DNA of 64,000 nucleotides from Haliotis asinina (Eukaryota; Mollusca; Gastropoda; Lepetellida; Haliotidae), in assembly GCF_037392515.1 (NCBI RefSeq), contig NC_090285.1:6265501-6329500 (forward strand), written 5' to 3'. Position numbers and translations under genes: made by a program. Positions 6,704 to 56,900 of this stretch are shown one piece after another. Under the pieces are notes generated by a model. The model was not told the origin of the DNA. It ran no database searches and saw only the letters and a program-made list of their open reading frames with translations. Numbering within the stretch: the first letter of the stretch is position 1; each line of letters opens with the position of its first letter.

Positions 6704-6920
6704 TCTACACCCGTTAAGGTCCGTGTTAGAATTGATCTTCAGTAACCCATGCTTGTCGTGAGAGGCAGCTAACGGGATCGGGTGGTCAGGCTCGCTGACT
6801 TGGTTGACGCACGGCATCGGTTCGATGCTTAGGCTGTTGATCACTGGATTGTCTTGTCCGCCATAAAGCTGGAATATTGCTGATGGCGGCGTAAAACTAA
6901 ACTCACTCGCTCACTCATTC
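6704..6920 (+). repeat. SINE family B copy
   Basis: Head ACCCGTTAAGGTCCGTG, middle GGGATCGGGTGGTCAGGCTC and GTTGATCACTGGATTGTC, tail GCTGGAATATTGCTGATGGC followed by CTCACTCGCTCACTCA. Confidence 0.88.
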
Positions 6921-16479: not shown

Positions 16480-16557
16480 TTCTGCTGATAGTGTACTCCG
16501 TAAACGCAATAATAAACTGCTAGTCAAGCGGCTGTAAAGAGAGGGGGCCTCGTTCAC

Positions 16558-19411: not shown

Positions 19412-22400
19412 ATGGCGGACTCAGAGGACGAGTTAGCCAAAACAGACGATGAAAATCTATCACCAGACACAGAAAATAACACGAATGCAGAAACATCAAG
19501 ACAGAAACCACAATTGCCAAAGAAGGTAATCTGAAGCTTTGTTTGTGTTTGATATTTTGGAGTACGCAAGACGAACATATGGAACGAACCGATTCTTGGA
19601 CTCGCAAAACTTAACCTGTAGATAACGTAAACGTAAACAAACACATGCACCAGAACCGGCTACTTTAGCTGTCGATACAGATGATAGATCACAGATTGCA
19701 TAGATGATAAACTTTATATCGTATCATTAACTAAGTATAGAGTTATTTTAGATATATATCGAAGAAATAACTTGTTGCTAAAATGCAAAAGAAGTCCTAA
19801 ATTAAAAATCAACATTTTCCAATTTCAGGTGAGTGATTGCTAAAAAAGACAACTATCAGAACATAATTCGAATAATCTGAATTTAGATGTAATGTGTTTT
19901 GTGTGAGTAAATTTAAACTTCAGACATCACTTTAGTATATATGAGATATTTTGGGTGATCCTCAGCTCATATCGATAATCATTTGATTATTCTTGCCTTG
20001 ATTCTTGCAAGTCCATTAGTAGCATTATTGCTCCTTCTTAATTACAAATAATGATCAAAATCAACTATGCTCATCAGCCTAAAGGAAATCAATCAATTGA
20101 CCAAAAAGTTTTTTGATAATTTCTCTGAAAACTGGATGAGTCATTGTATATTGTACAATACAAATTATCCGTCAGATGCAAATATGGCTATACTGTAAGC
20201 ATGATAAGAATGTAAACATTCTGAATAGGTTTCTTTTGAAAAGAGGTTAATGGAAAATTGTTGTAATCTCAGTGTATGAGTTCATAACCAAAATGATTTT
20301 TATGGAATATTGGAACTGCTACAAAGAATTTGATATGTTATTATATCTGATGGTTACTGATGATTATTTCTTCTGTAGGAAGAAATAGGAAACCTATGAT
20401 GTCCCATAATTATTCATCATGTTCGTGTGAAGATGTAAACTTTGAGTATACACATGTTAATTTGATCATTTGTTTCACGTAGAACGATAACAACATTTAC
20501 ACTCTGTACTCTTCACTTCCTTAAAAATAAGGAGGAACAATGTTTAGGGTTAGACAACTTTTTTATTGCAGTAGATATGGCATTTTGGTGTAGATGTTAA
20601 TTAGAATGTTTTGAATCTGTTTTTAAATTGGAGGTAGTGCAATAATAAGCAAAGTGTTCTGAATTGCGATAAAACTTAATTCACTGTTAAATCTTTTTGT
20701 AAGTAAAATACTTATCACGTGTACAAAGCCACAATGTATGTTGATTATAACTTTGTAAACATGCATTGGGAAATCTGATTTATGGACTTTGTCCATGTGA
20801 TATCATTCAAATCCTGGTCAAAATAACTTTGAATGAAACATTGTTTTTTTCTTTTAGAAGTAGAAGTTGTTGAAAGTTTTTCTCTGTTGGTAAGAACCAA
20901 TATGATCAATACTCAATGACATGCACTTTCCTGTAAATTAGTAGTATTTGGAAACTGTTTTCTACAACATGTATTTCCTTTTTTGCTTCAAGGTGCATTC
21001 TAGAGGGAAGTCAAATAGACCAGCAATACAGATAGATTTGTCTAAAGTGAAAAGAAGGCCGTCTCCTCACAAGCCAAGTCTCCCCACGCCCCTCACAGAA
21101 TACGGGTTGGATGAAAGAAAACAGGCTCGAGCTAAGGTAATAACCCCATGATAGGGTAGATTCCTGCTTTCCTGTCTGTGGGGGCACCTGCACAGGCAAC
21201 ATCCATGCTTGTCTAGGAAAAATTGCAGAATACCAGATACCTTACACCATCTTTGAAAACCTCAGAACTACACAAAAAAAACCAACTTGACTTGAGTGTT
21301 TAGTACTTTGCAATGATAGTGTACTTTCTTTTTTTAGCCCTTGGATACCTGCTCATATCTTTAGGGTGGGTTGATGAATGTGGTTAGGGTAAGAGGGTAA
21401 GATTAGGTTTAGGGTTGGGCAACTTTCCCACTTTTATTTGCTCCAAGTCCCAGAATTCCATTCCTTAATTCCAATTTTTCAAACATGCATATATTTTTTG
21501 TGTGCAATAACTTACATCATATTTTCAAAATTGTTGGTTAGTTTCACTAACCAAAAGTCGTCCCAAATAATTCAGTTTGTTCGGTTATTTTTTATATTTT
21601 TCCTTATCCTGATTCCTGCTTGTAATGTTTGTCTCCTTCTATCCAAACATAGTGGAACACTTGAATCCCTTGAAGTTCCTTTCACAGAAGAGGACGTAAA
21701 TTCAACACTTGCCCATGAGTAGAGTAGCCTCCCTTTAGCCCATGGATTGGCGCGCAAATCAGTCACATGACCGACCATGCCTGCCACTCTCTCCTTCATC
21801 ACCCTAGAGGTCGGATGTGAAGGCGCCTGGGTCCTGATATCCTTTAAGTTTTTTACCTTACGAGGGTTAGCTGAAAAGTTCTAAGTCTCACTGTGAAAAA
21901 AATTACAAAGTCCACGTTTGTGATTTATTTTTCTACATAGTCCCCTTCCAAGTTCACACACTTTTGCCAGCGATGCTGCAAGGCCCGAATCCCGGTCAGG
22001 AAGAAATCTTCTTCAGCTACCCTAAAAAAATCAGTCACAGCGGAAATGACATCATTACTTGCAAAATGGCGACCTGCAAGTTCCTTTTTCATTTTGGGGA
22101 ACAGATGGAAGTCAGAAGGAGCCAAATCAGGTGAATAAGGAGGATGGTCAATGAGTTCAAAGCCACAATCGCGGATTGTTGACATGGCCACCACCGATTT
22201 GTGAACAGGCGCATTGTCTTGGTGGAAGAGGACACCTTTAGCGATCATCCCTCATCGTTTGGCTTTGATTGCTTCTCGCAACTGGTTCAGTAGATCAGCA
22301 TAGTATCTGCCGTTAATAGTTTGACCTTTTTCAAGATAATCAATGAGCAGAATACCCCTGGAATCCCAAAAGACTGATGCCATCACCTTTCCAGCTGAAG

Positions 22401-25400
22401 GAACAGACTTGGCTTTCTTCGGAGCTGGTGAATCAGGATGCTTCCACTGTTTTGACTGTAGTTTTGTTTCTGGTTGAAAGTGATGTATCCAGGTCTCATC
22501 CATGGTTACAAATCGTGCCACAAAATCATCGGGATCTGCTTCAAAACAACGCAAATTGTCAAGGGACGTCTGGAACCTGACACATTTCTGTTCTGCTGTC
22601 AAGAGCTTTGGCACCCATCTTGCAGAAACTTTCGTCATTCCTAATTTGTTGGTGATAATATGCTCAACCCTCTCATGAAAGATGCCCACTACACTAGCAA
22701 TATGTCGAGTAGTCAATCGTCGATCATCCATCAACACATCGAGCACTCACGTGATGTTTTCTGGAGTGGTTGCTGTTGAAGGCCTTCCTGAGCGTGGGTC
22801 ATCTTCAAGGCTTTGTCTGCCACGCTTAAATTCTGCAGCCCACTTCTTTACTGTGGAAAATGAAGGAGCATCATCCTCTAGAGTGGAGACCATGTCAGCA
22901 TGTATCTGTGTTGGGGACATCCCTTTCTTTAGCAAGTACTTGTAGACTGCCCTGTATTCAGTTTTGTCCATTTCTGATGATTTCAGAGGGTAGGTTTACC
23001 AAAAGAGCTGTAGTTGAGATAAAACTATTAGTACGTTTGTAGTTCTTGTGTCTATGATTCACTAAATGATTGTCCTCATTGGTGGCAAACACCTGTCTCT
23101 ACCTGGTGGGGAAAAACCACTCAGGCTGAGAACTTTTCAGCCAACCCTCGTAGATCCCACAAATGTATCAAGATCGTTCACCTGCATGCAGACCTGCGCG
23201 AACCATTTCCTATCTTCAGGCTTTATTCAGCAGTCAACCATGCATGCAAGCATGATCTCTCGGAGAGGAGGACCTGCATGAACACTCATGTTTGTTTGTC
23301 GTCTCAACTATTATAATCTGTTTGGCTCAAAAGTGGACCAATGAATTGCAGTCTAAAACTAAAACTCGAAAACTAAGAAACAAAATACTTAATGAAACGC
23401 TGATCATAATCAAAATATCGTACCACCCCTGTGAAGTTTTTGCAGAATATTTTTCCTAATAATAAAAAAGTTGTTAAACAAACTGTCATTAAAATATTGA
23501 CACAGTTCACTGTTTATTACGAGGGAGGAGTGCAGAGAAAGGCACATTCAGGTGTTTTAGAAGCATGTCCACAAGTGCCAAGAAAATTATTTATTCATTA
23601 ACCTGTGCCATGCTGTACCTATGCTTTCTCACACACCAGGCTGTCCCTTTCTCTGCACTCCTCCCTCAATATTTTGATGATAGTTTGTTAAAGAACTTTT
23701 TTATTTAATGAAAAATATTCTGCAAAAACCTCACAGAGTTGGTATGATGTTCTGATTATGATTAGTGTTTCATTGAGTATGTTATGTTTATTTGTTTTTG
23801 AGCTAGACTGCAATTCATCAGTCCGCTTTTGAGCCAAACGGACTATAGAAGTCTGGAGGCCACCAGGAATGTAGGTTCCATGAATGCAACAAGTTTTACT
23901 CGTGCAGGTTCCATGAAGGCACGTTCCAAGTATGCACATTCCATGAAAGCATGTGCAGTCATCGAGGGAGGTTCAATGAAAATACAGCCTCAGGAAGGTG
24001 TAGACAACACCTTAGTGATCTCGGAGCACTTCCATTATAGATTATGTCAAGTTCGGCCCACAATGTAGAACTTAGTCCCAGACATGTTCATGAAGCATGT
24101 TACAACATAGATGTTGGCTATGTTGGATCAATGTGTGGCTAACAGAAGAGGTGCACATCTGAAATTAACGATGCCAGATAACGTCCGAGAAAACACCAAA
24201 GTTGGATCCTCATCACATAGGCTGTTGAAAATGCCACATTCATCCATGGGAGATAGATTACATGATTACACTTTATGATCTTGCATAAAGATGGTGTCAG
24301 CTTCTCATGATTGCAGCTACATAGAGATCTTTTTCATTTACATTGTTCCTGTACAGTCTACAGAGATCAAGAGGAGAGTGTGGCAGTCGTCACCAGCCTA
24401 AGATCAGACTAACAGTCTTTCATGTATAGTCGTTGCGGTGAAGATATCAACTCTACAATAACCTTTTTGTTCATTACAACACATATGGATCAAGAGATTT
24501 CAGTAAAAAATTAAAAGTGGAAGATCAGACACAACTGCCAGGGAGACAGTCAAGTTACATCAATACTATGCTGTGAAGCTTTTTTGTATGCTTCCATTCA
24601 GCCACCCACGCACGTTTGTTCGATAACTCCAGGACAAGCCATACAGTGAAATTACAGACAAGGCCAAGTTTTGGCGAACAACAAAAAAGTGACTGCACAA
24701 GATTCCACGATGATCATTTAATTGCAACACCAGTGACATCACTTTCCTGGAATCTGATTGGTCCATATTTGACAATGCCCTGCGCAGAACTCTGTCATAG
24801 TTCATGTGTCAGGAATTCATCTACAGATGTAAAAATCCTTTTAACGTGGGAAAGGCTTTACTTACAGTCCAGATAGCAGTGTACAGCCTTGTTCGATATC
24901 TTCACAGGTCATAGAGGTCTTCTGTCAGCAGTTTAAATGTTATTTATCTGAGACTTGAAACAACAAGTATCACAGGGTTTCGGCTCACCCAAGCCAGTCT
25001 TCACCACCATCCAGTCTATTATAAATAGACTTCCATCAATAGCATCGCATCATGGATCATGTGTGATCTGAAGTCGAAGATTGATGCAGCATCACTGCAT
25101 ATTGTTGAGATTCCAGTAACAACATCTTCATTACAGATGAAGCATGTTCATAGTTGATTCTACCTCAACCATATGACTGTTTACATGAGTAATCAGTTGG
25201 TTGGAGCACTTTGGCAGCAACGAGTATTCTGCAAATAGAATGACATCTTATTACCGGAATGTTAAGATATGATTCAAGCCATGATACCACAAGCAATACT
25301 CTCTCCGCGGACACATCACAGTTGGCAGTGTTTTCTTGGTCTACTGGCATCAGTCCGAGACATGACTTGCAGGGGGAGGTTACTGTTACTGTCAATGATC

Positions 25401-28400
25401 ACCTGAACAATACCGACCCATTTGTTCTACCAGATCATCTCATTCCATATCTGCTTTGGTGGACTCACAGTGAGCCGGACTGCGTCTATATGTAGATGCA
25501 TCTCTCCAAGAATGGGGCGCTCACCTCAACAATGAAGTAGCTTCGGAGAAGTGGTCGAGACAAGATCAAGCTCAACACATCAAACTCTTAGAGATGAAAG
25601 CAGTAATCAATTCAGTACAACACTGGTCAAGCCTACTCAAGAACGCCAAGCTCAGTGTTCACACAGACAACTCCACAGTTGAGTAAAGCATCTCATCCTC
25701 AAGTGCCTGACTTCTTGTGTTATTTACTACATAAAGCATTTAAAGGCTCGGCGTATTGGACTTACTTAGCAGCACTTAGTACAGTCATCACAATGAAAAC
25801 ATCCTCATAGAAACTGCTTGGTAACAACAGTCTTGGAGGGATGCCTTTAGAAATACACTATGGTGTTGCAAACCACTACCCCAGAGATATTACCAACGAA
25901 GACGTTCTTGGCATTCACCAGTCCACTAGTTGTAGAACAAAGGCACTGACATGCCGATGCCAAACACCCTGCGGAGTTAAATGGTTGAGAGCCCATGTGC
26001 GTGTGTCAGAGCAGACAAGCATGAGTGACTGTATCCCTGTACTGGTATGCTATACTTGTACCTGACGAAGGGATTGCATCATAACTTGATAACTTGGGTC
26101 AAACAAAGAAGTTGCCATAAGATTACTAGTAGGACACTAGTATATCTAAAACCACCCGGCGATGTCACATGACACTTTCATTGACAAGTTTGTCAAGTGT
26201 GTTTCCCCCAAGATACAGGATGAAAGTATAAAGTTTGCAAGTCTACAGCGCTGTTTTCAAGTTCCATTGCTGGATTACATGACATAAAATAAAGACAACC
26301 AGAGAATCCAGGAAGTGGCATGACCCACCATCGATTCTGTCGGATTCTTCCAAGTATAATAAACATTAGTCAGGATAAGGAACTAATATGTAATTTTCTG
26401 ATTAAAATCGATACTTTATAATTATCCTGACTCCTGAGGTCAGCCCTCCCATCCTTCCCTCTCAGGACACTCTGGATTTCACTGTAAATTCGGCTGTTGG
26501 GCTGTTTGATTTGGAGAGAGTGCCAAGCATGGCCAGTCATGTGACTGATTTGCGTGTCAGTGCACGGGCTAAAGGAAGACTACTTGTGGGCAAGTGTTGA
26601 TTTTACGTTCTCTTCAATGAAGGGAACTTCAAGGGATTCAAGTGTTCCACTATGTAAAGATAGAAGAAGGAGACAAGCATAATATGCATGAACCAGGATA
26701 AGTACAAAATGTCAATTTTAATCAGAAAATATCATTTGATACTCACATATTTTTTTTAATGTTACACTTATAGCTCATGCTTCCCTAGCAGTAGTAGAAG
26801 TGCTTGTGAAACTAAAGAATATGGCTGGTTTTTATCTATTATTCTGTAACTGTAAACTTGTCTCCATGTTGGGACAAAAGGGCACCTGTTAGTCCAGGGT
26901 CAGTGTTATGAATACACCTGACATTAGCCTGGTCTAGTACTCACAGGTACATATACACATGGATGCACATGGTTGTAGCTGTGTAATAATACTGATTGAT
27001 ACATTTAATTGGTTTTCATCTTATTTCACTTCATGGTCTCATCCATCAAAACTTGATCCAGATTGGCTATATTAACTGTAGGTGCAAGCTGCAAGGCTAT
27101 ATAGGAGTATTTCATACACCCTGTCACCTACTCTAGGAGAGCTGTACTTGATCCAGATTGGCTTTATTATTTGTAGGCGCAAGCTGCAAGGCTATATAGG
27201 AGTATTTCATACACCCTGTCACCTACTCTAGGAGAGCTGTACTTGATCCAGATTGGCTATATTATTTGTAGGCGCAAGCTGCAAGGCTATATAGGAGTAT
27301 TTCATACCCCTTGTCACCTACTCTAGGAGGGTTGTACTTGATCCAGATTGGCTTTATTATTTGTAGGCGCAAGCTGCAAGACTATATAGGAGTATTTCAT
27401 ACCCCTTGTCACCTACTCTAGGAGGGTTGTACTTGATCCAGATTGGCTTTATTATTTGTAGGCGCAAGCTGCAAGGCTATATAGGAGTATTTCATACACC
27501 CTGTCACCTACTCTAGGAGAGCTGTACTTGATCCAGATTGGCTATATTATTTGTAGGCGCAAGCTGCAAGGCTATATAGGAGTATTTCATACCCCTTGTC
27601 ACCTACTCTAGGAGGGTTGTACTTGATCCAGATTGGCTTTATTATTTGTAGGCGCAAGCTGCAAGACTATATAGGAGTATTTCATACCCCTTGTCACCTA
27701 CTCTAGGAGGGTTGTACTTGATCCAGATTGGCTTTATTATTTGTAGGCGCAAGCTGCAAGGCTATATAGGAGTATTTCATACCCCTTGTCACCTACTCTA
27801 GGAGGGCTGTACTTGATCCAGATTGGCTATATTATTTGTAGGCGCGAGCTGCAAGGGAACAAAAGGAAAAGAAGAGGAAGAGATCAACCACATTTTACAA
27901 TGATGATGAGAAGGATAAAGAGAAGGAAAAACTGAAGGAGGAGGTATGTTTATGCTCATCTTTGATACGTTAAAGTATACGCATCTATCGACTATCAGTT
28001 TTTGTGACCTTTAGTGTGACCATAAAGCAAAAAAATATTTGACAGAGTTTTACACTATATTCTTTTGTCTGTTTCATAATGAAACTTAGTGTGGAAAATA
28101 TCATGACAGGCTGCCGGTGTAATGTTAGGGATGCGAGGGAGCTCAATAATCCTGACAGGCTACTGGTGTAATGTTAGAGATGCCAGGGAGCTCAATAATC
28201 CTGACAGGCTGCTTGTGTAATGTTAGAGATGCCAGGGAGCTCAATAATCCTGACAGGCTGTCGGTGTAATGTTAGAGATGCCAGGGAGCTCAATAATCCT
28301 GACAGGCTGCTGGTGTAATGTTAGAGATGTGAGGGAGCTCAATAATCCTGACAGGCTGCTGGTGTAATGTTAGAGATGTGAGGGAGCTCAATAATCCTGA

Positions 28401-31400
28401 CAGGCTGTCGGTGTAATGTTAGAGATGCGAGGGAGCTCAATAATCCTGACAGGCTGCTGGTGTAATGTTAGAGATGTGAGGGAGCTCAATAATCCTGACA
28501 GGCTGCTGGTGTAATGTTAGAGATGCCAGGGAGCTCAATAATCCTGACAGGCTGTCGGTGTAATGTTAGAGATGCGAGGGAGCTCAATAATCCTGGCAGG
28601 CTGCTGGTGTAATGTTAGAGATGTGAGGGAGCTAAATAATCCTGACAGGCTGTCGGTGTAATGTTAGAGATGCGAGGGAGCTCAATAATCCTGACAGGCT
28701 ACTGGTGTAATGTTAGAGGTGTATGTGTTGCAGAAGCACATGCAGGTGCTGGAGGACTTGAAGAAGCTGAGGAATTACTACTACCAGGAGTACAGAGACA
28801 AGCTAGACACCAAGGTCACACAGCAACGGAAAGACATCCGGCTGAAGAACGAGGCTCAGCTGAAGAAACAGCAGTTAAAGGAGGACAAGGAGGTGGGGAG
28901 ACATTGTTGTGGCAAGCTGACAAAAGTCTGTAGGAACTTTAGCCATTATGGTTGATGGGGAGAGGGAGGAGATAAGGTGTAGTTGGGGATCATAGCCTGC
29001 AGCAGCTGTAGCTATGATGGTGTATGGGGAGCATTGCCCTACCAAGCTGACTGAAGACTGTAGCAAGAGTAGCCTTGATGGTGTATGGGGAGCACTGACC
29101 TACCAAGCTGACTAAAACCTTGCTAAGTTGACTGAAGGCTGTAGCCATGATGGTGGATGGGGGCATTGCTCTGCTAAGTTGACTGAAGGCTGTAGCAACA
29201 GTAGCCATGATTGTGTGTGGGAGCCATTGCCCTACCAAGTTGACTGAAGGCTGTAGTAACAGGAGCCATGATTGTGTGTGGGAGCCATTGCTCTACCAAG
29301 TTGACTGAAGGCTGTAGCAACAGTAGCCATGATTGTGTGTGGGAGCCATTGCCCTGCCAAGTTGACTGAAGGCTGTAGCAACAGTAGCCATGATTGTGTG
29401 TGGGAGCCATTGCTCTACCAAGTTGACTGAAGGCTGTAGCAACAGGAGTCATGATTGTGTGTGGGAGCCATTGCCCTGTCAAGTTGACTGAAGGCTGTAG
29501 CAACAGGATCCATGATTGTGTGTGGGAGCCATTGCCCTACCAAGTTGACTGAAGGCTGAAGCAACAGTAGCCATGATTGTGTGTGGGAGCCATTGCTCTA
29601 CCAAGTTGACTGAAGGCTGTAGCAACAGTAGCCATGATTGTGTGTGGGAGCCATTGCCCTACCAAGTTGACTGAAGGCTGTAGCAACAGGAGCCATGATT
29701 GTGTGTGGGAGCCATTGCCCTGCCAAGTTGACTGAAGGCTGTAGCAACAGTAGCCATGATTGTGTGTGGGAGCCATTGCTCTACCAAGTTGACTGAAGGC
29801 TGTAGCAACAGGAACCATGATTGTGTGTGGGAGCCATTGCTCTACCAAGTTGACTGAAGGCTGTAGCAACAGGAACCATGATTGTGTGTGGGAGCCATTG
29901 CTCTACCAAGTTGACTGAAGGCTGTAGCAACTGTATGGGGGTGGATGGGGGCGTGAGGAGGTGTAGCTGTGACATGGCAGACCAAAGTCAGTAGAAACTG
30001 TAGCTATGACATGGACTAGGGTAGAAGAATAAGGAGGTGTAGCATGATGTGAGGTTGAAGCTGGGGGAAGATGTTCCTTTACCAAGGAAGGACTAAGCTG
30101 TATTTTGAGGTGTCTTATTTTGGGTTACATCTTAACTGTACTGCATTGTGGCACCATAGGTCTGACTTACTTCAAGAATTAAACATAAAGAGATTGTTTT
30201 GTTATTGCAGCGTGAAGCAACTCATCATGTGAAGAAACGCCATGAACATCACAAACTCAAACATGATGACAGTTACATGAAGAATATACCCAAGTCTGAC
30301 GTCTATCTTGTAAGTTCACACCTGCTGTTAACATAGTTGCACATTGTGATATCAGTTACATCAGGAATATACCAAAGTCTGACGTCTATCTCGTATTGTA
30401 TCTTGTAAGTTCACACCAGCTGTTAACATAGCTGCACATTGTGATATCAGTTACATCAGGAATATACCAAAGTCTGACGTCTATCTTGTAAGTTTGTGCC
30501 TACTGTTAACATAGTTGCACATTGTGATATCAGTTACATGAAGAATATTCCCAAGACAGACGTCTATCTTGTAAGTTCACACCAGCTGTTAACATAGCTG
30601 CACATTGTGATATCAGTTACATGAAGAATATTCCCAAGACAGACGTCTATCTTGTAAGTTCATACCAGCTGTTAACATAGCTGCACATTGTGATATCAGT
30701 TACATCAGGAATATACCCAAGTCAGACGTCTATCTCGTATTGTATCTTGTAAGTTCACACCTGCTGTTAACATAGCTGCACATTGTGATATCAGTTACAT
30801 CAGGAATATACCAAAGTCTGACGTCTATCTCGTATTGTATCTTGTAAGTTCACACCAGCTGTTAACATAGCTGCACATTGTGATATCAGTTACATCAGGA
30901 ATATACCAAAGTCTGACGTCTATCTTGTATTGTATCTTGTAAGGTCACACCTGCTGTTAACATAGCTCCAGATTGTGATATCAGTTACATCAGGAATATA
31001 CCAAAGTCAGACGTCTATCTTGTAAGGTCAAACTTGCTGTTAACATAGCTCCAGATTGTGATATCAGTTACATCAGGAATATACCCAAGTCAGACGTCTA
31101 TCTTGTAAGGTCACACCAGCTGTTAACATAGCTCCAGATTGTGATATCAGTTACATCAGGAATATACCAAAGTCTGACGTCTATCTCGTAAGTTTGTGCC
31201 TACTATTAACATAGCTCCACATTGTGATATCAGTTACATCAGGAATATACCAAAGTCTGACGTCTATCTCGTAAGTTTGTGCCTACTATTAACATAGCTC
31301 CACATTGTGATATCAGTTACATCAGGAATATACCCAAGTCAGACCTCTGTCTTGTAAGTTCACACCTGCTGTTAAGATAAGTGCATGTCTGTTCCAGATC

Positions 31401-34400
31401 CTTGGACTGCAAGAGAAGATGCTAAAGGAGGGGAAGCTGCGAGGTCAGGATGACCTTGACAGGTTCTGGATGGAGATGAGAAAGCCACAAGTCTTCTTCG
31501 CTCACTTTCCAGGTCCGGCAAGCTTTTCTGTCTTCTATTATTAAATATGTTTTATTAAATTAAATATTATTAGTTGAACTTAGTAGACCAAACATACATT
31601 TCCATACTCAGGTTTTTGACTAATGGCAGTGAGTGGCAAGGAGGCCGATGGTTTCAAAGACCTGGTTTGATTCCTGGGTCAAAAATGGTTACAAACAAAT
31701 TCTTTATGAAATTTGACCATTTTTGGTTCCCAGATATTGGAGCTAATGCTTTGTGCCTAGTTAATTACCAACTGTTGTGTTGATGATACACAAACACCAT
31801 CACAGACATCACACATGGTACTCTTTCTATGCCTTGATTAAAACACCATAGGTCCTGCCATTTCTATAAGCTAGTTCTCGTGTAAGTGTTTCTGTTTTGA
31901 ATGTAGACGGACTTGCTGCCACCTCCAGCTTCCACCAGAACATTGTGAAATCTGCCATGCAGTCCCCAGGGAGGGAACAGTCTCGCTCTCTCAGTCAAAT
32001 AGCTGAGTCAAAGGAATCGTCGCGACCCACCACTCATGACACCTGGGCTGTCACACAGAGATACAGCCACATACACCAGGTCAGCAGATCCGCTTGGAAG
32101 GATTGTATACCTCCGTATTTTCTTGTGTATAGTGCTTTTTCCAAAAAAATATCTCTTACACTTACGGTATATACTCCTGTCTGAGGACCTGTCAGTTCCT
32201 TCATCGGGAGTCATCAGATTATCACTATCTGTTGGGATAGTGTCCTGAGATGTACAGGTTTTTACCAGCTGAATAGGCCTAACACCACAAGACTGACAAT
32301 TGACACATGTATGAAAACTTTCAGCCGCCAAAACACTGTACACCTTGTTTTAGACACATTCAGAAAGTGATCACTCCCAAGTTATAAGGAATCACTTTGG
32401 TGGACTACTTTTGTGTTACAGTTAGATCCATTGTGACTGCCATCAGACTTTTTGTGTTGAAATTCAAAGCTCAGACAGAGTGTTTTATTGCTTTGATGAC
32501 ATTGTCGCTATAATGCTTGATGTGAAAGATTTTGATACTGACTCGTATCTAGCTACACAATGTAGTAACAAGTCAATGTCGAAACGTTTGTGGAGAAGTG
32601 ATAGGCAACTGATATATCCTATTAACTGATATATCCTATTAACTGATATATCCTATTAACTGATATATGTCATATCAAACATTGCGATGTCTTGAAATCA
32701 GTACAGTCTTGCAGTCGAGTTATATTGCTTTTTAGAAGACAGTGATTGGTTAGTCATATGGCTAAATTGACCAATTATATGTCTAATTGTTTGATGGTGT
32801 GCTATATTGTGTTTCCCTGCCAGGCCCTTGAGTCTCCATCACTGAGGGGAGTATCAATCAGCCCTTCCAGACAAGCAGCCATTGAGCTGGAGAAGAGGTT
32901 CCCAAAGGTAGGACATAATTCTGAGGTTTAGTGGTCAAAAGCTTTGGTGTCTCCAGAAAACATGTTTCAGTCCTTACAGTACAAAGTCATTCTTAGTGTC
33001 TTTGCTGCATTACTTGAATAATGTTTGAAAGGTCCAATATGAGAGGAAGGTGTTAGATAGACAGGTCTGATGAGGGATGTTAAACCTTCTGTATATTCAT
33101 GAAGAACTTGTAACTCAGTGACGTCTGCTTCCTTCTGTCCCACAGCTGGAGATGCCGCCCCTTCACTGCTTCACCATGGACCTGGGAAAGAAGCCACCAG
33201 ATCCTGAAGAGGTACACCTGACTGCAGCTGCAGCAATAGTCTGTCTCACAGTCCCAGAACCATATTTTGATTTAGGGACTGATAAAGTTTTTTGAGAAGG
33301 GGTGGGAGGTAGGGGTGGGTGTGCAGTTCCCTTTTGCCTGTTTCTAGGAAAGTTTCATATTAAAATTTCAAGACAAAAGCGGATCTGAGCACTCCTGTTC
33401 TCTATAATCAGAGAAAAGTGTAGGTCTGCACCAGCATTAGACTAGTGGTTGCTGACGGTTACTTGGAATGTACTGATGACAGTTTTTGTCTACCACCTCA
33501 GGGTTTGAAAACAATTACAAGTTGCCATCCACCTAATGGTGAAAGAGATAATCCACACGGAATTGGCACTAGTGCAGCAAATATTGAAACCCAAGCAATA
33601 AATTGTAGAAATGTTCCTTTGGTCTATAAGTACATATTCAATTCACACAAATATCACACCATAGGCTTCTATGCTAAGCACAACAATATTTGTCAATATA
33701 CATGTATCTAGTGTATTTACCCACCTCCTGGGCAGAGTGGTGGCCTTGTGGTTGAAGCATTCGCAGATCCCATGTGTGATGTGTGAAGCTTGTTTGTGCT
33801 GTCCCACAGTGTTATGTTGCTGTTATATTGCACAAAGCTAAACTTACTCACTCACACAACTCCACATTACAGATACAACTGAAGATGGACTTGAAGGCAA
33901 AGGAGAAACAGAGGCGCAAGTTCTTGAAGAAGTTACACAAGATGCACCAGCTCGCCATGGCCAACAGCGCTGCAGCAACCAGGTAAATGCAGGTGGCATG
34001 GCAACCTCCATCAATGTGTCATATAATAGGCAATTATGGATGAGATGCTCAACTTTTACCAGAGGATTTAAACTTGAGTATTCTGCTACTGTGTCATATA
34101 AAATGTGTTTGTAGATGAGATTAGGTGTATTACATTCCCCGGTGCTTTTGTATAGGCAAATACAAGTGGAACACAGCCTCAAACACACCGTGTGGGGTCG
34201 TTTGTCGGGATTGTTTATCCAAAGTCAGCGTTGCAAACTCCCACCTGCCTGACTGTCCCGGACTGTCCGTTTTAAAAAGTTGCACGCCCAGTGGTCTTGG
34301 ACAAATCTGACTTCGAGCATAATGACTAAACCTTGACTGAAACTCATTTGAAAACATTAGTTCCTCTTATTTACCTTCTTATTTGTTTTCTTAATCCATT

Positions 34401-37400
34401 AAATTCTGGACTGGCAACTTTCTAACCGGTCAGGTAACTTTTGAGTGTTACCAGATCAGTTGCCTGACTGAAAGTTTGGTGTGTTTACAGCACTGCCGAA
34501 TTGTGTGGTTTGATTTTCATGATGTTAAACTCACTCACTGTCTGGTCAAGACTGTTATTTACAGACATCTCTTATATAGCTGATGTATTTCTGAGTGCAG
34601 CATGAAACACCAAACTGCGATAATGCAACAGGAATGACGGCAGTAGCAGTGTTTGAACAACACACTCTAGTCTCTGACTTTGTCTCCAAATGTAGCATGG
34701 GAACGTGGCATGAATGTTTTTCCTTCTTGTGAAACTATATCTTGTCCAATAAGGTAGAAAAATGTGGTCTTTTTGTCCATAGTGAGACACTGGGATGGCC
34801 TAGTGGTTAAAGTGTTTGTTTGTCATGTGGAAGACCCGGGTTCAATTGCCCACAGCAGTGTGTACAATGTTTTTGGTGTCACCATGATATTGTTGCTAAA
34901 AGTGGCATACATGTGGCATACAAGTTACATACTCAGTCATGTTGATACTCTGTATTTATACCAAGATTATTTTAACAGACATGCCAACAGCAAGATTCAT
35001 AACCTAAAGCTGACAGAGCATTCCTGAAAGTATTTGGAATGTAAGAAATTAACAAAGTGTGTTCCATGTTTCAGTTCATTAAAGAATCTCAGGTATCCTG
35101 TACCATGTGGTGAAGTTTAGATCAGCATAGTTGATAACTTGTCCTTACTTTTGTAAGAACTTGTAGAGCAGATGCAGGATTTGAGAATGGGTGGGTGCAT
35201 GAGCATGTGAGGTGTCTGGAAAGAATGGAAGAGGATGGGAGGAATGAAAGAAAAAGACACCTAACAAGCTGGATTTGCCAGTGGTTAGGAGTATTCATAA
35301 GTCTCAGTGAAGTCAGGCCTGCTTTATTACTGAATAGATGTAGATCATGTTTATCCTTGCTTAGCTTGAATTGTAAGATTCAAATTCTGTTGTAGGTATT
35401 AGTTTGGTTAATGTGTCATTGTGTTTAGACTAAAAAGCTAGTTCACTAACAACAAAGAACTAGATGGTGGAATTCATGAAATAAGTGCTGTAATTGGTGA
35501 AAGCAATGACAGTTATGGGGTGACACTTTATCATCCCACAGCGGTTACTTGTCATATCTTCCTATGAAACTCTGTTCTGATACGGCCATATTTCTCAGTT
35601 CTTGTAAAATCCCCTAGCGGCATAAAGTCGCAACACAAAATATCTTTCTTTTTTCCATTTAGTCAGAACATGCTTTACATCGACTTAGATCCAACTTGAT
35701 TAATGCAAGCAAATATGGGGCCACAAATATCCCTCATCTGATATGACAGACAAGACATTTAAAAACTAGCATGTCTGTTGTCAGTGAGGGTGATGTAGAC
35801 ACCATTGATCCACCATTACTTGACTGAATTCTGTCTTGTTGAAATATTTGCGTATCTGCGAGAGAAGAAGTTTTCCTGAAACATACGGAAATTGCCAAGG
35901 CCTTGCGAATGATCACTTAAACAACATCGCTGATTGCACAACTAAATCTTGTTGCAACCAATCACAAATCGTGATCACTTGCACAATGAAAGGGATGCAT
36001 TATACTGGCCTATTAGATCAGAGGTTTGTAGGAATAGGAAGATATGACAAGTACCCTCTGTAGGAAGAGAATGGGGGTGGAGTGACATATATTATTTTAC
36101 AAATGTAAACAGTTTTCTCGTAAAGCACATGAGAAGTATGACATTTCTGTTCTCACGTTCCTTTACTGACTATCGTTTAGTAGCAGATTCCTTAAAATGC
36201 AAGAAATTCTGATTACTGGTAGATTGATTCCATCAGTGACTGGTAGACATTTCTTAGATTGATTCCACCAGTGACTGGTAGACAGTTCTTGTGTGTTAAT
36301 CTGAGAGAACTATTTTAGTCAGCTGCAGTAATGCAAGAGGGTATGCAAGGTACAGGCAACAGAGCGTTGTAGACTTTACTAACACATGGAAATAGAGGCG
36401 TTTTACTGTAACAAAGTGCAGGGTCAAATATATGGGTATAGTTGTTCTGTAGAATCTAGTCTACATGTGATCTAAATTATATTTTCAATTTGTAAGAACT
36501 AATATATACTCATATTTATATTATATTTTCAGTTATATTCAAAGAACTTCCAACAGAATGGAGAAATATATCCAATAGCAGTATTACCATGACGATATTT
36601 AATTATCATTAAAACTTCCTATATTTGGTAAGATACATGGGATTAAAGCTGATGTAAAGAAGAAAACTAAAAACTTTTTTTCTGCTTCTTAGGCATAATA
36701 TACTGAGAGAGGCAAAAAAAGGATCACAGGAAATTTCAAGTGATCTTTTATTATTTTCCAGTTTTCATCACCACAGCACTATTCAAAGCTGGTGATGAAA
36801 ACTGGAAAAAATTAAAGGATTGTTTGAATTTCCATGTGATCATTTATCTGTTTCTCTCAGTATACACATGTATCTGAAGTTATTCATACTGATTATTGTT
36901 TGTAATTTTTTGTCTTCAGAATCTTAGATAAGCACACTGACCTTGCTTTCTTGCTGGATGGACCTGATTTAACAGATCTTGTGAGTTTGAAGTTATTTGT
37001 ATTTGGATATACATATGTTTATGGATTGAGGTATAACTGAATTTCACAGTCCGGCACACTTCATGTTTGTCATCAACTGAAACCTAGAATACATTTCGCT
37101 GAGATCATCAGATTGGAGGCGTGATCTCCTGATCCTCATACTAAAGAATAAAGGAGAATACTTCTGAATAGTACAAGCTGCCAGACTTACACATGCATAT
37201 TGCTATGCAAGTGAAATAATATTGAATGCAGTGGTGACTCCTTCATATTTCATGTTCATTTTTTCAAAATATTTCAGAAGCAATGTATTCAAAGATGATA
37301 ATTTGAAAATGGGTAAGGACAGTGTGAGGATGTTATATCATGTCGCCTTCATGCCAGCTGATATGCTTTTTTGCTCAGATATCTGATTATTACTGGGAGA

Positions 37401-38843
37401 CTCACGAAGCTGCCCCGTCCCTATCCCAGCCAGCTGCCCTGGCCAGCCAGCGCCTCCCACCTATCTCTGGTCAGGAGTCTGCGAGAGTGGGTGAGCCGAC
37501 AATGACCAAGGAGGCCATGATGGTTGAGTCAGAAACTGAGCAGAGCACACACAGCAGGAGGAGTTCAGTTTCCACAACACCAAGGCAGTGAGTACCAGGC
37601 TGTTGATCCTACAAGAGAGATATGTGTATCACATATTTATCCTACAAGAGAGATATGTATCACATATTTATCCTACAAGAGAGATATGTGTATCACATAT
37701 TTATCCTAAAATACAGATATGTGGATCACATATTTATCCTATTAGACAGACATATATTTATCACAAGACTACAATGTCCTGTTGTGTGGGAATATGTCAG
37801 TGTGGAACATGATCTAGAAACTCAAAGTTGTTTTGTCAGAAATAGTGTCATTATATAGTGTTAAATTTGTGTTTAAACTAAACTATGTTACTCTTGTCTC
37901 ACAGATAATAAACAAGTGCGGTTTGGTTTAATGCTGCCTACAGTATTCTAGTCATACCATATAGCTGAAACCCACACGCTTGTATTGGAACAGACAACCC
38001 TAGAAATATAATCAAACTAGTTACAGATTTCTGTCATGCCCAAGGGGCACAACTCTCCCTCATTCTCAGTATAATTCATGATGAGAATTTACTGTACCTC
38101 CAGTTTTTCACTAGCTGATTACATGGGAATCAAGCTCCAGGTTGAATGCATGTCATACAACCCAGACTACATAGATCAAGGCTTATGCATTCAGTGTATA
38201 GTTTCAATGGCTCATATTCAGGCCATGACATTATGGTGGATGTGACTTAATTAATTGAATGTGCGATAACTGAATGAGCTGTGACATGTCAAGTGTAACC
38301 TTGTGGAGTTTTGTTCGCATTTGGAAGGAAGGAATTTTAATGAAAATCTCTATCTTTACAGGGAGAAGAAAGCAGAGCAGCAGCTTGTTGTGTACGAACC
38401 ACCAAAACCTCTCCCACTCACTATGGAAGAAGTTCGGGATAAAAGCAGGATTGTTGTGAGTAATAAATCAAGCCAGCTAATTTACATCTCAGTATTATCA
38501 GAGAATTACAGGATTCCAAACTAAATACTACTATCCCTAGAAGGCAACTTGGGCAAATGTCAGGAAAATTTGTAATTTTCTTTTCTTTTTAACAAAATGG
38601 GAATATTTCATATTGAAATTGGTAATTTTTACTGTCATTTATCAGACTCTGAGCAGCTCTTGATAAATCTAGATACCGTTATTTATGTCAATAAATACCC
38701 ACTTAAAGCAAAGTAGAATCAAGAGTTCCATCTCATCATACTGCCCCTTAACTGTTTTCTTGCAGGAGGCGAAGGCTCTGAGTTCATTCTGGCCAAACTA
38801 TATGCATGCTGGCCGAAACGTCTTCCTCACATCATCCTCTTGA
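19412..38843 (+). CDS. Unrecognised lysine-rich coiled-coil protein, 14 exons, 535 residues
   Basis: Coding exons: 19412-19525, 20993-21136, 27842-27943, 28734-28892, 30211-30309, 31398-31512, 31907-32079, 32824-32907, 33146-33211, 33873-33982, 36920-36980, 37379-37587, 38362-38455, 38766-38843. Every junction is GT..AG and the frame stays open to TGA. The start has good context (ACTAAAATGG) and an acidic N-terminus (MADSEDELAKTDDENLSPDT). Residues 87-206 are very rich in K, E, R and Q and look like a long charged helix or coiled coil (KHMQVLEDLKKLRNYYYQEY). Next comes a more ordered block (GQDDLDRFWMEMRKPQVFFA), a serine-rich stretch, a second basic helix (KAKEKQRRKFLKKLHKMHQL) and a C-terminal block ending in NYMHAGRNVFLTSSS. 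No signal peptide or membrane helix is seen. I do not recognise a family; a cytoskeletal or ciliary role would be a guess. Introns 2-5 are filled or edged by minisatellites and a retroelement fossil. Confidence 0.85.
21355..21420. repeat. TTAGGG-like degenerate run
   Basis: Three TTAGGG hexamers with GGGTAAGAGGGTAAGATTAG-type variants in 60 bp of intron 2. This could be a decayed interstitial telomere-like tract or simply G-rich sequence. Confidence 0.3.
21861..23150 (-). mobile_element. mariner transposon, 1,290 bp, full length
   Basis: Terminal inverted repeats CGAGGGTTAGCTGAAAAGTT (left) and the complement of AACTTTTCAGCCAACCCTCG (right) are flanked by TA at 21859-21860 and 23151-23152. 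The length is usual for mariner, and one transposase frame runs through it on the minus strand. Its insertion just inside the left end of the DIRS-like fossil makes it the younger of the two. Confidence 0.95.
21925..22971 (-). pseudogene. mariner transposase with two in-frame stops
   Basis: A 349-codon frame on the minus strand from ATG 22969-22971. The N-terminal helix-turn-helix region includes RSGRPSTATTPENI. Catalytic residues are D in VTMDETWIHH, D in HQDNAPVH and D in YSPDLAPSDFH, with 34 residues between the second and third, which is the mariner DD34D signature. The frame is broken only by TGA at 22747-22749 and TGA at 22252-22254. The second falls where a run of arginines is usual, so a CGA-to-TGA change is likely. 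No frameshift is seen, so the copy is fairly young but inactive. Confidence 0.92.
23310..23846. mobile_element. Foldback (MITE-like) element, about 0.54 kb
   Basis: GTTTGGCTCAAAAG near 23319 pairs with CTTTTGAGCCAAAC near 23828. Matching arms of about 200 bp continue inward (GGAGGAGTGCAGAGAAAGG against CTTTCTCTGCACTCCTCC). No frame lies inside, so it is non-autonomous, and it sits within the DIRS-like fossil. Confidence 0.75.
27051..27841. repeat. 95-bp minisatellite carrying copies of the exon 3 splice acceptor
   Basis: ACTTGATCCAGATTGGC recurs at 27051, 27146, 27241, 27336, 27431, 27526, 27621, 27716 and 27811. Each full unit contains TTATTTGTAG followed by GCGCAAGCTGCAAG, a copy of the real acceptor (TTATTTGTAG, then GCGCGAGCTGCAAG) and the first bases of exon 3. 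The real junction is the last, ninth copy. The oldest-looking unit, the first, is the most divergent. Confidence 0.95.
28103..28730. repeat. 49-bp minisatellite filling intron 3 up to the exon 4 acceptor
   Basis: About 13 units of CTGACAGGCTGCTGGTGTAA then TGTTAGAGATGCGAGGGAGC and TCAATAAT. The final unit runs into GTGTATGTGTTGCAG, the acceptor of exon 4. Variants GCC, GCG and GTG alternate between units, suggesting higher-order duplication. Confidence 0.95.
28893..29935. repeat. 61-bp minisatellite starting at the exon 4 donor
   Basis: About 17 units of GAGCCATTGCCCTACCAAGT, TGACTGAAGGCTGTAGCAAC and AGGAGCCATGATTGTGTGTG. The first, degenerate unit begins at the splice donor itself (GTGGGGAGACATTG against GTATGGGGAGCATTG in the next units). 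The minus-strand frames reading QPSVNLVEQWLPHTI are by-products, since a 61-bp period rotates through all frames. Confidence 0.95.
30268..31375. repeat. 80-97-bp array carrying copies of the exon 5 end and donor
   Basis: The last ~40 bases of exon 5 (AGTTACATGAAGAATATACC onward) and its donor CTTGTAAGTTCACACC are copied about twelve times. Decoy donors start near 30405, 30488, 30569, 30652, 30748, 30844, 30939, 31021, 31106, 31189, 31270 and 31352. Units come in two lengths, with or without ATTGTATCT before the donor. The array fills nearly the whole of intron 5, ending about 20 bp before exon 6. Confidence 0.95.
32614..32668. repeat. Short tandem repeat, 3 copies of AACTGATATATCCTATT
   Basis: Three units of about 17 bp, then a partial one, in intron 7. 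Confidence 0.85.
33727..33858 (+). repeat. SINE family A, degenerate copy
   Basis: GTGGCCTTGTGGTTGAAGCA (A-box region), then TGTGTGAAGC and the tail AAGCTAAACTTACTCACTCA. Its tail ends 15 bp upstream of exon 10 of the coiled-coil gene. Confidence 0.7.
34780..34925 (+). repeat. SINE family A copy
   Basis: GATGGCCTAGTGGTTAAAGT, then AAGACCCGGGTTCAATTGCC (box B), then GGTGTCACCATGATATTG. The tail is decayed. Confidence 0.75.
34926..36700. other. Intron 10 sequence, nothing recognised
   Basis: AT-rich intron of the coiled-coil gene. The only local repeat noticed is a near-duplicate of CAGTGACTGGTAGACA at about 36233 and 36268. Confidence 0.5.
36703..36860. mobile_element. 158-bp palindromic MITE
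   Basis: CTGAGAGAGGC at the left and its complement TTTCTCTCAG at the right are flanked by TA. Arms of about 70 bp pair almost throughout (TTTTCCAGTTTTCATCACC on both arms), leaving almost no loop. This is probably a Tc1/mariner-type non-autonomous element, 59 bp upstream of exon 11. Confidence 0.85.
37605..37745. repeat. ~33-bp array just after the exon 12 donor
   Basis: TCCTACAAGAGAGATATGTG and TATCACATATTTA repeat four to five times, starting about 18 bp after the donor at 37588. Confidence 0.85.
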
Positions 38844-40060
38844 GTCAGGGACTTACTACAGGAGGCAATTTGTGTCAAACAGTTCATGGAGTCTATTATG
38901 ATATACGTGAAGGCATTTGCAGTGTTGGATTGACACAGTTGGAACAATCTGTCCTGTTGGATCAACACTGTTTAAACAATCAGTATTGATGGATTCACAC
39001 CTTTAGAACAATCAGTTTTGTTGAATCAGCACTTTTGGAACTATCTGGTTATCAAGTCATTTTGTGTTTGCAGGATGACTGGTCTAATCAAACGATAGCT
39101 ATTCCTGTCTGCATTTTCTGGGTTTGCTTTTTTTTCAAAATATGCATATTTGATGATATTTGACATTTTGTGTAAGTTACATCTCTCTCAATCTGAGTTT
39201 GGTAATTGTGATTTCCATAAACTCTAGATATTTGGATGTGACTTGTAAACAGAGCAAAGTCTGTGCAGTAAGCGTCACGAAATGAAATGGAGTACTAAAT
39301 TTCTGTTACTCCTGAATATTATTGTAACATGAACATGAAAATACCCACAATAGCAGTTTTGGGTAGTATTTGTATGCACCGGTTGTGAATGGTGTGTTGT
39401 TATATGGAGCCAGTTTAGAGGTATTTGCCAAACTTGTTGATCTGTGATACATGAGATTTTAGTTTAGTTTATAGTATTTGTGTTGATATTTCACTTTTTT
39501 ACATAATTGTTATATGGCTGTGAATGTGTATAAAATGTTCAACCATAAGTAGTTATCTGTTATATTTTTTCTCTTTGTGCTTCCTTTTCATTCTATCATT
39601 ACATGAAACATCGCCCTCTCCCAATTCAAGTCTTGGTTATGCTTGTTGCCCCTTGACTAATGGATACTAATGGCAGGCGGGTAGCAAACAATTTTTTTCA
39701 TGTAAATCTCTTAAGTTGCAAAACTGTATATTCAGATAGTACTGAGGACTTGCCCAACGTTATAGCAACATTCACGTGTAAGCCAGTACTACGTAATTTG
39801 CAGTGGTTCAGAACACTACAGATAATTTGGCAGTGGTTGAATCAGTGTTGCAAGATCATTATAATCATGATGAGTACATTGTAGACATTCTTGGATAATT
39901 AGACACCAAGCCAGAGACAAATGCATTGATAGTTTGATTGAACATGACATTTCTACACTACACTGACAATTGGCTCTGTAAGGAACGGAAATGGAGCAAT
40001 CACAACAATTAACAGCATCAGTTTTGACGCACAGTAGTTCAACATGTATCATCTGTGACA
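38844..40060. other. Probable 3' untranslated and intergenic sequence
   Basis: Follows the TGA of the coiled-coil gene and is AT-rich. No AATAAA is found close to the stop; one lies near 40599. No repeat family is recognised. Confidence 0.4.
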
Positions 40061-53900: not shown

Positions 53901-56900
53901 TTCTGTACAGTTCCTTCAAATCACTGGATAAAATTCTTCAAAGTTAAAATTGTGAATATTATTTTTTGTGAATTATATGTGCAAAACAATTGCTAGGTTT
54001 CGGATGTGACAGTCCTAGAGACAACTACCTGTGGTAGGAGTCCCTGGTTTACAAAGCAGGAAGCCCTGTTCCTCTGGAGTTTGGCCATGTTGATGCTCAT
54101 CATCTCGCTTGGAGAGAACAAACTGAGGGAGTAGTTGTACCACGTCAGGGCCTCACCATACTCTTTACTCTGGGAACACAGAACACACTGATTTGATGAA
54201 GAATACTCTTTACTCAGGGAACACACTGAGTTGATGAAGAATACTCTCTACTCAGGGAACACACTGATTTGATGAAGAATATTTTTACTCAGGGAACACA
54301 CTGTTGATGGAGGGAGAATACTCTTTACTCAGGGAACACACTAATCTGATGAAGAATACTCTTTACTCAGGGAACACACTGAGTTGATGAAGAATATTCT
54401 CTGCTCAGGGAACACACTGATTTGATGAAGAATATTTTTACTGAGGTAACACACTGATTTGATGAAGAATACTCTTTACTCAAGGAAACGTGTTGATGGA
54501 GAATACTGTTTACTCAGGGAACACACTGATTTGATGAAGAATACTGTTTACTCTGGGAACACACTGATTTGATGAAGAATACTCTTTACTCAGGGAACAC
54601 TGATTTGATGAAGAATACTCTTTACTCTGGGAACACACTGATTTGATGAAGAATACTCTTTACTCAGGGAACACACTGATTTGATGAAGAATACTCTTTA
54701 CTCAGGGAACACACTGATTTGATGAAGAATACTCTTTACTCAGGGAACACAGAAGCAACTATCATGCAGTGACATTAATACAAATGTTTGTTATTGATCA
54801 TAGATCCATAGAAAGTAATGCATAAGGATTCAGTTATAATACAGGTATAAAATATTAGTTTTAACAAAACAAATCCCCTGTGCAAACCCTGCATACAGTG
54901 TGTGAAAGATTTCAAGTTATACAAGCAGATGAATATTGACAATTAGCTAAATGAATAGTGTTAAAAATTTGCTCCCCACAAAAATGTGATCTACAGACAT
55001 GAACAATTCTTGTTGAAACAGATCTTACTGTTAGTTTCAAAGAAGTCTATTTTAGACTGGGTACATTGTAGGCCCCAGATGTATAGTTAGACACAATATT
55101 ACTTCCCAAAGAAGTCTGAATCTTTAAAATTTCAAGTGTCTCATTAGACAGAAAAACACACACGCACACACACGGATGCACGCACGCACACACAGACTCT
55201 GCTGGTTTTGTTGAAGTCTTCTTTAGAAAGAATAATTACAGTGTTGGTCTAAGTGAGGTGAAGTTTAGACAGAATATATACAGTTGATCTGAATGACGGC
55301 AGTTGTTATGGGCAGTTTTTCTCCATTATTAATCATCCAAATGCAGGTTTTACAGACTATAAAGGAGTACCTGTACATGTATTGAATTACAACACAATAG
55401 TAGTTATACAATCAGACGTAATTTGTTGAAGAGGTAAGATATGATATTTACCTCAAAAGCAGCTCCACCCTTCTCCCAAAACACCAGGTGGAACTGCTTC
55501 CTTGTGTTAATGTCCAGTGGCCTTCCTGTGTTGTGAGCTATACAAAGAAACAGTTGATTGATTGTTTGTTGCTCAATGTCAAACTCAGCCAAGTTCCAAC
55601 TGCAGTGGTCTGCAGTGTGTGAAATTTACACTGGTCCTGTGGTCGTGGCTACTAAAAATTCACCACAGTGAACTTTGTATTAAAAGGTAAGTAAATGTAT
55701 AAATGTCATTTTGAACCAGAGAAGTAAAGAGATGACCACTTATTATTGTCCACACACTAGTTCTTTGGTCTAGTGGGAAATTTTGAAAGTTTCTTTCCAG
55801 GGTTTGTAAATAAATTGATCCATGCATCCATGATGTTATTTCTGGTGTGACAGGTAGGTAAGTGACTGAATATTTTGATGTCTTTCCGCCACTGTGTCTA
55901 TATTACATACATCGGTGAAGACAATGGTATCATTTCTTAGATATTAAATACTGAGTAAGTGAGTGAGTTTAGTTTTATGCCACACTCAGCAATATTCCAG
56001 CTATATGGCGGCGGTCTGTAAATAATGCAGACAATCCTGTGATCAACAACATGAGCATCGACCTGCACAATTGGTAACTGATGACATGTGTTAACCAAGT
56101 CAGCAAGTCTGACCACCCAATCCTGTTAGTCGCCTCTTACAATTAAATACTGAATTAAGAATATGATCTTTATAATAACAGCAAAGGTAATATCCTATTA
56201 GAAAGTGAGGGAAAAAACAAACCTTTACTTATGTGACAATAACTATGCAATGATTATAACCAATGAAACATCAAATTAAACTTTAGAAAGTATGTTTCTT
56301 ATTGCTATGTTCATCAAATCAAGACTTGAACAACTAATGCAAAATGTTATGATTGTGTCCAGTTATTGCCCACATGAGTTTTATGGTGGGGTTATTATAA
56401 CAAATATTGATAACGATCTATTACCAAGTTCATATCACTGACCTGTACAATGTGAGTGATAACTAGTACTTGTGAAACTATTAAATCCTGGCAGTTACTG
56501 TTCTGATAAAATCAACAAGATTAATGCCTTCCGGTATGGATACAAGATTTTCTTGTTCATACCTCAATAGCAAAATACCATATTAAAAGAATATAACTGT
56601 CCACATTTGCAGACACCCCACAGGAGGAGTACTATGATCAGGCATGGTTAGAGAGCGTGAGTGAGGTTAGTTTTATGCCGCACTCTGCAATATTCCAGCT
56701 ATATAGTGGCAGTATGGAAACAATCGAGTCTGGACCAGACAATCAAGTGGTCCACAGCATCAGCATCAATCTGGGCAACTGTGAACCAATGGCATTTGTC
56801 AACCAAGTCAGCGAGTCTGACCACCCGTTAGTTGTCACCAAGAAAGAACATTATTTTATCCTAACGAACTTAATGATAGCCACCACTATATATATTGCTA

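Follow-up and report, generated by a model that had tools for sequence, protein, structure and literature searches.

We describe here a group of minisatellites associated with splice junctions in a stretch of 64,000 nucleotides from the abalone Haliotis asinina (NCBI RefSeq assembly GCF_037392515.1, contig NC_090285.1, positions 6,265,501 to 6,329,500 of the forward strand), which is called the window below and whose internal numbering is used for all window features. The central element is a predicted gene for a coiled-coil protein (the host gene), the introns of which hold four arrays in immediate succession (arrays 1 to 4) and a fifth further downstream; array 6 lies on the opposite strand in a SPO22/ZIP4-like meiosis gene (Table 1). 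The model of the host gene is a prediction from sequence alone, built by hand and tested by script. It has GT-AG boundaries at 13 of 13 introns, consistent phase and open exons 1 to 13, and its exon numbers match those of the preliminary description of this DNA, which had placed the arrays in introns 2 to 5.

Arrays 1 to 4 were located with Tandem Repeats Finder (TRF) at the limits given in Table 1, except that TRF itself places array 3 at 28997-29935. Array 1 extends 15 bases beyond the acceptor at 27842, and its copies consequently hold that acceptor together with about 15 exon bases. Array 4 includes the final 40 bases of exon 5, occupies intron 5 and stops 18 bases before exon 6. From the TRF edge of array 3, diverged copies can be followed leftward as far as 28893, where intron 4 begins (alignment score 56, as compared with a mean of 22.2 and a maximum of 39 in shuffles), and no homology between this array and the exon 4 side was seen (P 0.22). 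Array 2 ends at 28718, with exon 4 starting at 28734; no homology was detected between the array and its right flank (P 0.76), which leaves its extension to exon 4 in diverged form unsupported. Since a genome search with array 2 returned a single location, its own, no dispersed family is seen for it. Under the predicted gene model, two of the four arrays would thus span a junction, one starts at a junction and one is only near. The preliminary description of four unlike arrays is borne out by these findings (units of 95, 49, 61 and 83 or 95 bp), as are its statements that array 3 begins at the exon 4 donor (once the diverged copies are counted) and that array 4 begins inside exon 5. It had also let arrays 1 and 2 end on the acceptors of exons 3 and 4, respectively, and this has to be corrected, because the frame-keeping acceptor of exon 3 is spanned by array 1, and array 2 falls short of exon 4.

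Two features of array 1 bear on its history. First, copies 2 to 4 equal copies 5 to 7 with 0 mismatches across 285 bases, which points to a probable recent duplication of a whole block. Second, the copy most distant from the exon is also the most diverged; 4-9 mismatches separate it from the remaining full copies, and 0-5 separate these from one another. As for array 4, collapsing it to one copy would leave an intron 5 of 44 bases (31354-31397), which is short for an animal intron. We rejected the idea that intron 5 is newly gained because read-through from exon 5 hits a stop after 8 codons; the 44-base one-copy form is left unexplained by this. Tandem alternative exons in array 4 were likewise rejected, as the unit read by eye as a phase 0 cassette runs into a stop.

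Arrays 5 and 6 are additions to the preliminary description. One unit of array 6 has 23 bases, 12 of them exonic, in common with the region of the true acceptor (score 46, against a shuffle maximum of 28). The gene around it owes its name to a SPO22 match of 29.3 bits (cut-off 27.5) over residues 1-43 of 190.

Table 1. Features of the window, and arrays at or near exon edges in the sampled loci outside it (L numbers)
Feature	Position	Strand	Repeat unit	Remarks
Host gene	19412..38843	+		coiled-coil protein; 14 exons; stop codon 38841-38843 in exon 14
Exon 3	27842..27943	+		sole frame-keeping acceptor among 9 copies
Exon 4	28734..28892	+		gene model
Exon 5	30211..30309	+		final 40 bases inside array 4
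Exon 6	31398..31512	+		gene model
Array 1	27051..27856	+	95 bp	8 decoy copies and the exon-bearing copy; exon 3 acceptor and ~15 exon bases in each
Array 2	28100..28718	+	49 bp	intronic throughout; stops 15 bases before exon 4
Array 3	28893..29935	+	61 bp	TRF start 28997; diverged copies back to first base of intron 4
Array 4	30270..31379	+	83 or 95 bp x 13	each copy with GTAAG donor and a version of the exon 5 end (40 bases)
Array 5	37606..37741	+	33 bp	starts 18 bases past exon 12 donor (37588)
SPO22/ZIP4-like gene	~42500-63275 (extent tentative)	-		meiosis gene, host of array 6; five exons assembled, possible others in coding scan
Array 6	54158..54751	-	38 bp	spans acceptor 54169 and 12 exon bases
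L032 (dynein)			82 bp x 15.9	acceptor and ~36 exon bases; junction-spanning
L029 (dynein)			35 bp x 4.8	donor; junction-spanning
L042 (myosin)			33 bp x 15.5	donor; junction-spanning
L044 (myosin), first array			41 bp x 12.3	donor; junction-spanning
L044 (myosin), second array			24 bp x 14.4	acceptor; junction-spanning
L025			23 bp x 2.5	5-base overlap with exon match, starts near donor; counted as overlap, may be match overrun
L030			61 bp x 3.4	17 bases beyond exon match

The protein of the host gene matched no Pfam family, and a biotin ligase identity was dropped, the two PDB matches behind it (E 0.017 and 0.018) being an apparent resemblance of charged sequence. Intron 2 of the gene further contains, at 21925-22995 on the minus strand, pieces in more than one frame that we take from their open reading frames to be Mariner-like transposase, and at 25474-25683 on the plus strand a fragment presumably related to a retroelement reverse transcriptase or RNase H. 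Elsewhere in the window there is a Frizzled gene in a single uninterrupted frame (14764-16641, minus strand; Pfam Frizzled 417 bits, Fz 112 bits); an abalone interspersed repeat at 6759, 10440, 43419 and 56091, which matches 41-44 of 49 bases of a published Haliotis gigantea probe (at most 26 in five shuffles); and four short imperfect pairs of inverted repeats.

Junction-spanning arrays in other genes and in amphioxus

About 300 kb outside the window was sampled from the genome of 1.143 Gb. Eighteen preset regions of 10 kb (180 kb) held 21 large arrays, or 1.17 per 10 kb, where an array was called large at a period of at least 15, at least 3.5 copies and at least 100 bases. Two gene samples were drawn, both picked regardless of repeats. 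The first comprised 14 dynein heavy-chain loci holding 51 of the 55 PF12781 matches (the four excluded were isolated ones); the second comprised 10 myosin head loci with 32 of 125 matches, for which 65 of 339 candidates were scored and many neighbouring paralogues on one contig, as well as some long loci, were excluded. Junction-spanning arrays were found in both families, at donors and acceptors (Table 1). In L044, an intron of 855 bases (364-1218) is nearly filled from its two ends by arrays of 480 and 342 bases. Junction-spanning arrays are thus widespread and tolerated in this genome, and are not depleted.

In amphioxus, minisatellites that duplicate intron/exon boundaries are known as mirages; this and the other published systems below are described from parts of the cited sources. 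They were reported in Adh3 and in the globin genes BflGb6 and BflGb9 (PMC3087553), with PGBD5 and TnC as further cases (PMC3902484), and they occur at donors and acceptors with units of 10-160 bp; many of the copies, though not every one, contain splice signals (PMC3087553, PMC3902484). The same literature characterizes them by regular splicing that is left undisturbed and by a length that is unstable among haplotypes or in the soma. In our material, the repeated unit carries exon and intron sequence across the junction in arrays 1, 4 and 6 and in those of L032, L029, L042 and, twice, L044; array 2 does not cross a junction, nor does array 5, judged by its position, and array 3 lies on the intron side only. 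The eight junction-spanning arrays consist of head-to-tail copies of the minisatellite class (units 24-95 bp, 4.8-15.9 copies). By the structural definition, then, the junction-spanning arrays of these six genes would be classed as mirages, judging from their sequence. That the host is not a cephalochordate is a difference of range, not of structure; an amphioxus host was set aside once the abalone-type interspersed repeat had been recognised in the window. With regard to unstable length, the 285-base perfect block of array 1 is suggestive, as seen in one assembly.

The likeness to the amphioxus cases lies in the minisatellite-type tandem copying of intron/exon boundaries of both kinds. The differences are the gastropod host, the presence in one gene of arrays across two junctions and of others at or close to three further ones, a myosin intron filled from both ends, and a copy number of 4.8-15.9 as compared with 3 and 6 in two BflGb6 haplotypes. 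In the open-access literature searched, outside which most subscription journals lie, no mollusc case of such arrays was found, and under the name of mirages only amphioxus appeared in the parts of those sources consulted.

Other systems are related less closely. Intron 3 of a TSSK1-like gene of Haliotis discus hannai carries a length-polymorphic minisatellite whose copy number varies among individuals (PMC6905558); it resembles ours in being an array within an abalone intron, and differs in its 27-bp unit. A search with its consensus gave 0 matches at up to 2 mismatches, although the printed consensus has 26 letters for a 27-bp unit and an internal gap would hide matches. CeRep25B of C. elegans is likewise a minisatellite tied to splicing, being over-represented near alternative splicing regions (PMC4039745), but it is a named family present in many genes, whereas here each array has its own unit that copies its own junction. 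Work on intron gain (PMC4974935) likewise deals with tandem genomic duplication, which it takes as a source of introns; here, however, existing introns grow and no new one is shown. Human internal tandem repeats (PMC2812944) also alter gene structure by minisatellite expansion, but do so in human segmental duplications.

The sampling brought up several further observations. Very long minisatellites were present just upstream of the window (L003, 5536-8947, 29 bp x 119) and in a preset region (L021, 1-6710, 46 bp x 146). Two adjacent exon matches on one contig (C5:72781461-72781556 and 72782373-72782474) map to one and the same part of the myosin head (121-152 and 119-152) and are possibly alternative exons. 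Equal myosin head scores on two contigs (C4:389122-389355 and C18:1570718-1570951) could reflect either a recent duplication or a duplicated assembly.

Decoy splice sites and their tolerance

The intron-side copies of a splice site, here called decoys, were compared with the site presumed to be in use by means of simple matrices, and the scores are accordingly rough. Array 1 retains AG in 8 of 8 decoys, five of which score higher than the used acceptor, two equal to it and one lower. In array 4, GTAAG is retained in 12 of 12 decoys, seven being equal to the used donor and five lower; a pooled scan gave 5 equal and 7 lower for the same array because some of its units carry a 12-base insert. Such retention is not general: AG is present in no more than 2 of the 15 decoys of array 6, and array 3 has weak donor-like sites. 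Over the eight junction-spanning arrays of six genes, 79 decoys could be aligned and 63 of them had the dinucleotide retained (L042 is under-counted here because only 3 of its ~15 copies aligned); 21 of the 63 score higher than the used site, 22 equal and 20 lower, so that 43 score at least as high. Every decoy tried leads to an early stop, 8 of 8 in array 1 and 12 of 12 in array 4, and only the exon-side site keeps the frame.

From the sequence evidence we think it likely that these arrays arose by ordinary tandem duplication and unequal exchange, and that they are tolerated for as long as the exon-side copy wins in splicing. In a genome rich in arrays, minisatellites would arise by local tandem duplication. 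If the duplicated stretch happened to include an exon-intron junction, the junction would be copied repeatedly on the intron side, giving rise to a mirage array, the copy number of which would then shift via unequal exchange or block duplication and presumably varies among individuals. Throughout, the splice site adjoining the body of the exon would probably stay in use, whereas use of a decoy would produce an early stop and be selected against. An array would be tolerated because the exon-side site is still used and decoy use ends in an early stop. A similar account, namely slippage or unequal exchange tolerated only if the outermost junction stays intact, had been offered in the preliminary description, and the 285-base block together with the early stops from 20 of 20 decoys lends it support. 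The position of the initial duplication is, under this account, probably near-random, any excess at junctions being modest.

Placement of the arrays and rival accounts

The main challenge to ordinary duplication is that an active process may seed duplication at splice junctions, for instance through filled-in nicks or staggered breaks that leave a junction-filler-junction (A-B-A) arrangement which then expands. That minisatellites may be born from staggered breaks is an existing idea. Read by eye, arrays 1, 4 and 6 start and finish with the junction-bearing part of the unit, that is, they have the form (AB)nA, and this hints at what would be expected if a short filler had come to be flanked on either side by a copy of the junction part and the whole had then expanded. 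The L044 intron, into which a donor array extends from one end and an acceptor array from the other, also fits with seeding. Against it, four fillers were scored for an origin within the window and none went beyond the shuffle maximum, and partial end copies are common in minisatellites generally. A birth driven by hairpins was rejected too: for 5 of 6 units the fold is not superior to that of shuffles (z -1.1 to 0.9), and only the unit of array 5 folds better (z -2.7).

Seeding also makes a prediction about position, for which each array was collapsed to one unit and this seed was placed uniformly outside exon interiors, large arrays being those of at least 3 copies and at least 100 bases. 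Exon edges outside the window are the ends of profile matches rather than annotated junctions; several thresholds were tried and the P values are uncorrected. The dynein loci alone are without excess, with overlap of an exon edge in 3 of 15 arrays where 2.0 were expected (P 0.33) and 2 of 7 large ones where 1.2 were expected (P 0.34). Over the dynein and myosin samples together (24 loci), the figures for all arrays are 6 of 24 overlapping versus 3.2 expected (P 0.083) and 8 of 24 within 20 bases of an edge versus 4.7 (P 0.072). In the myosin loci, 3 of 9 arrays overlap versus 1.2 expected (P 0.09).

The following results, in contrast, lean towards junctions, several of them against our preferred account with its near-random placement. 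Among large arrays, 3 of 5 in the myosin loci overlap an exon edge as compared with 0.9 expected (P 0.03), and 5 of 12 in both families do so as compared with 2.1 (P 0.038); relaxing the limit to 20 bases gives 6 of 12 versus 2.9 (P 0.041). In the host gene, 4 of 8 arrays lie within 20 bases of a junction versus 1.0 expected (P 0.01), as do 4 of 5 large ones (P 0.002), although both values are post hoc; overlap there is 2 of 8 versus 0.7 (P 0.16), and array 3 was scored as a miss in the host-gene count because TRF edges were used. Finally, of the large arrays in the window that could be assigned to an intron, 6 of 6 are found no more than 20 bases from a junction, versus 1.5-2.2 expected (P 1e-6 to 9e-5), when each seed is placed randomly within its own intron and the ends of arrays 6 and 1 are taken as 54150 and 27857, which leaves the criterion unaffected; the window was chosen for its striking look, and the sample outside it gives only P 0.04-0.08. 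It holds 12 large arrays in 64 kb, and the six outside these junction counts comprise five in its first part (1-14 kb), where a coding scan found no clear gene, and one past the last exon (38923-39045). Because the junction excess is nominally significant for large arrays and stronger in the host gene, purely random seeding may be wrong.

On balance, a junction preference that is modest at most, about twofold in a small sample, is weakly supported, and so is the proposed seeding at splice junctions, which as an active process we regard as unlikely. The preliminary description had held that duplication is seeded at, or constrained by, splice junctions. Its second half agrees with the tolerance of arrays under an intact exon-side junction, whereas its first half is not established by an excess of about twofold (P 0.04-0.08) that the dynein loci do not share. 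A bolder version, to which we assign a similarly low likelihood, is that a mutational process of this gastropod lineage preferentially duplicates exon-intron junctions, that the resulting junction-filler-junction units expand, and that introns would thereby grow inward from their ends and acquire rows of spare splice sites.

Ordinary duplication with tolerance also has to be weighed against accounts in which transcription or splicing plays a more active part. Transcription-linked R-loops over G-rich sense strands, raised as a speculation in the preliminary description, could be invoked for array 2 (sense GC skew 0.33) and array 3 (0.25), but skew is 0.05, -0.10, -0.10 and -0.07 in arrays 1, 4, 5 and 6, which include the junction-spanning ones (1, 4 and 6). 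Because arrays 1, 4, 5 and 6 are without marked G excess on the sense strand, this cause is unsupported, and we consider it very improbable. Equally improbable, in our view, is a function of the repeated splice sites, be it as a stock of alternative sites under regulation or as a switch to unproductive splicing. The complete retention of GTAAG and AG in the decoys of arrays 4 and 1 and the placement of the C. elegans minisatellite near alternative splicing regions (PMC4039745, in part) could be cited in its favor; nevertheless, 20 of 20 tested decoys lead to an early stop, and retention, which arrays 3 and 6 show not to be general, would also be expected in young arrays. Least probable of all is an assembly artefact: although an assembler could also have produced the perfect 285-base block of array 1, units vary within every one of the four arrays that were compared, and unlinked genes show the same structure.

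Taken together, the structure described here is of a known type; its host is new and the number of cases unusual. Mirage-type arrays in several mollusc genes suggest an under-noticed route by which introns grow and splice sites multiply. Each such array offers in addition a natural experiment on as many as 15 matched copies of one splice site, and given that 43 of the 63 decoys with a retained dinucleotide equal or exceed the score of the site presumed to be in use, these arrays ask what, besides the site itself, fixes the edge of an exon.

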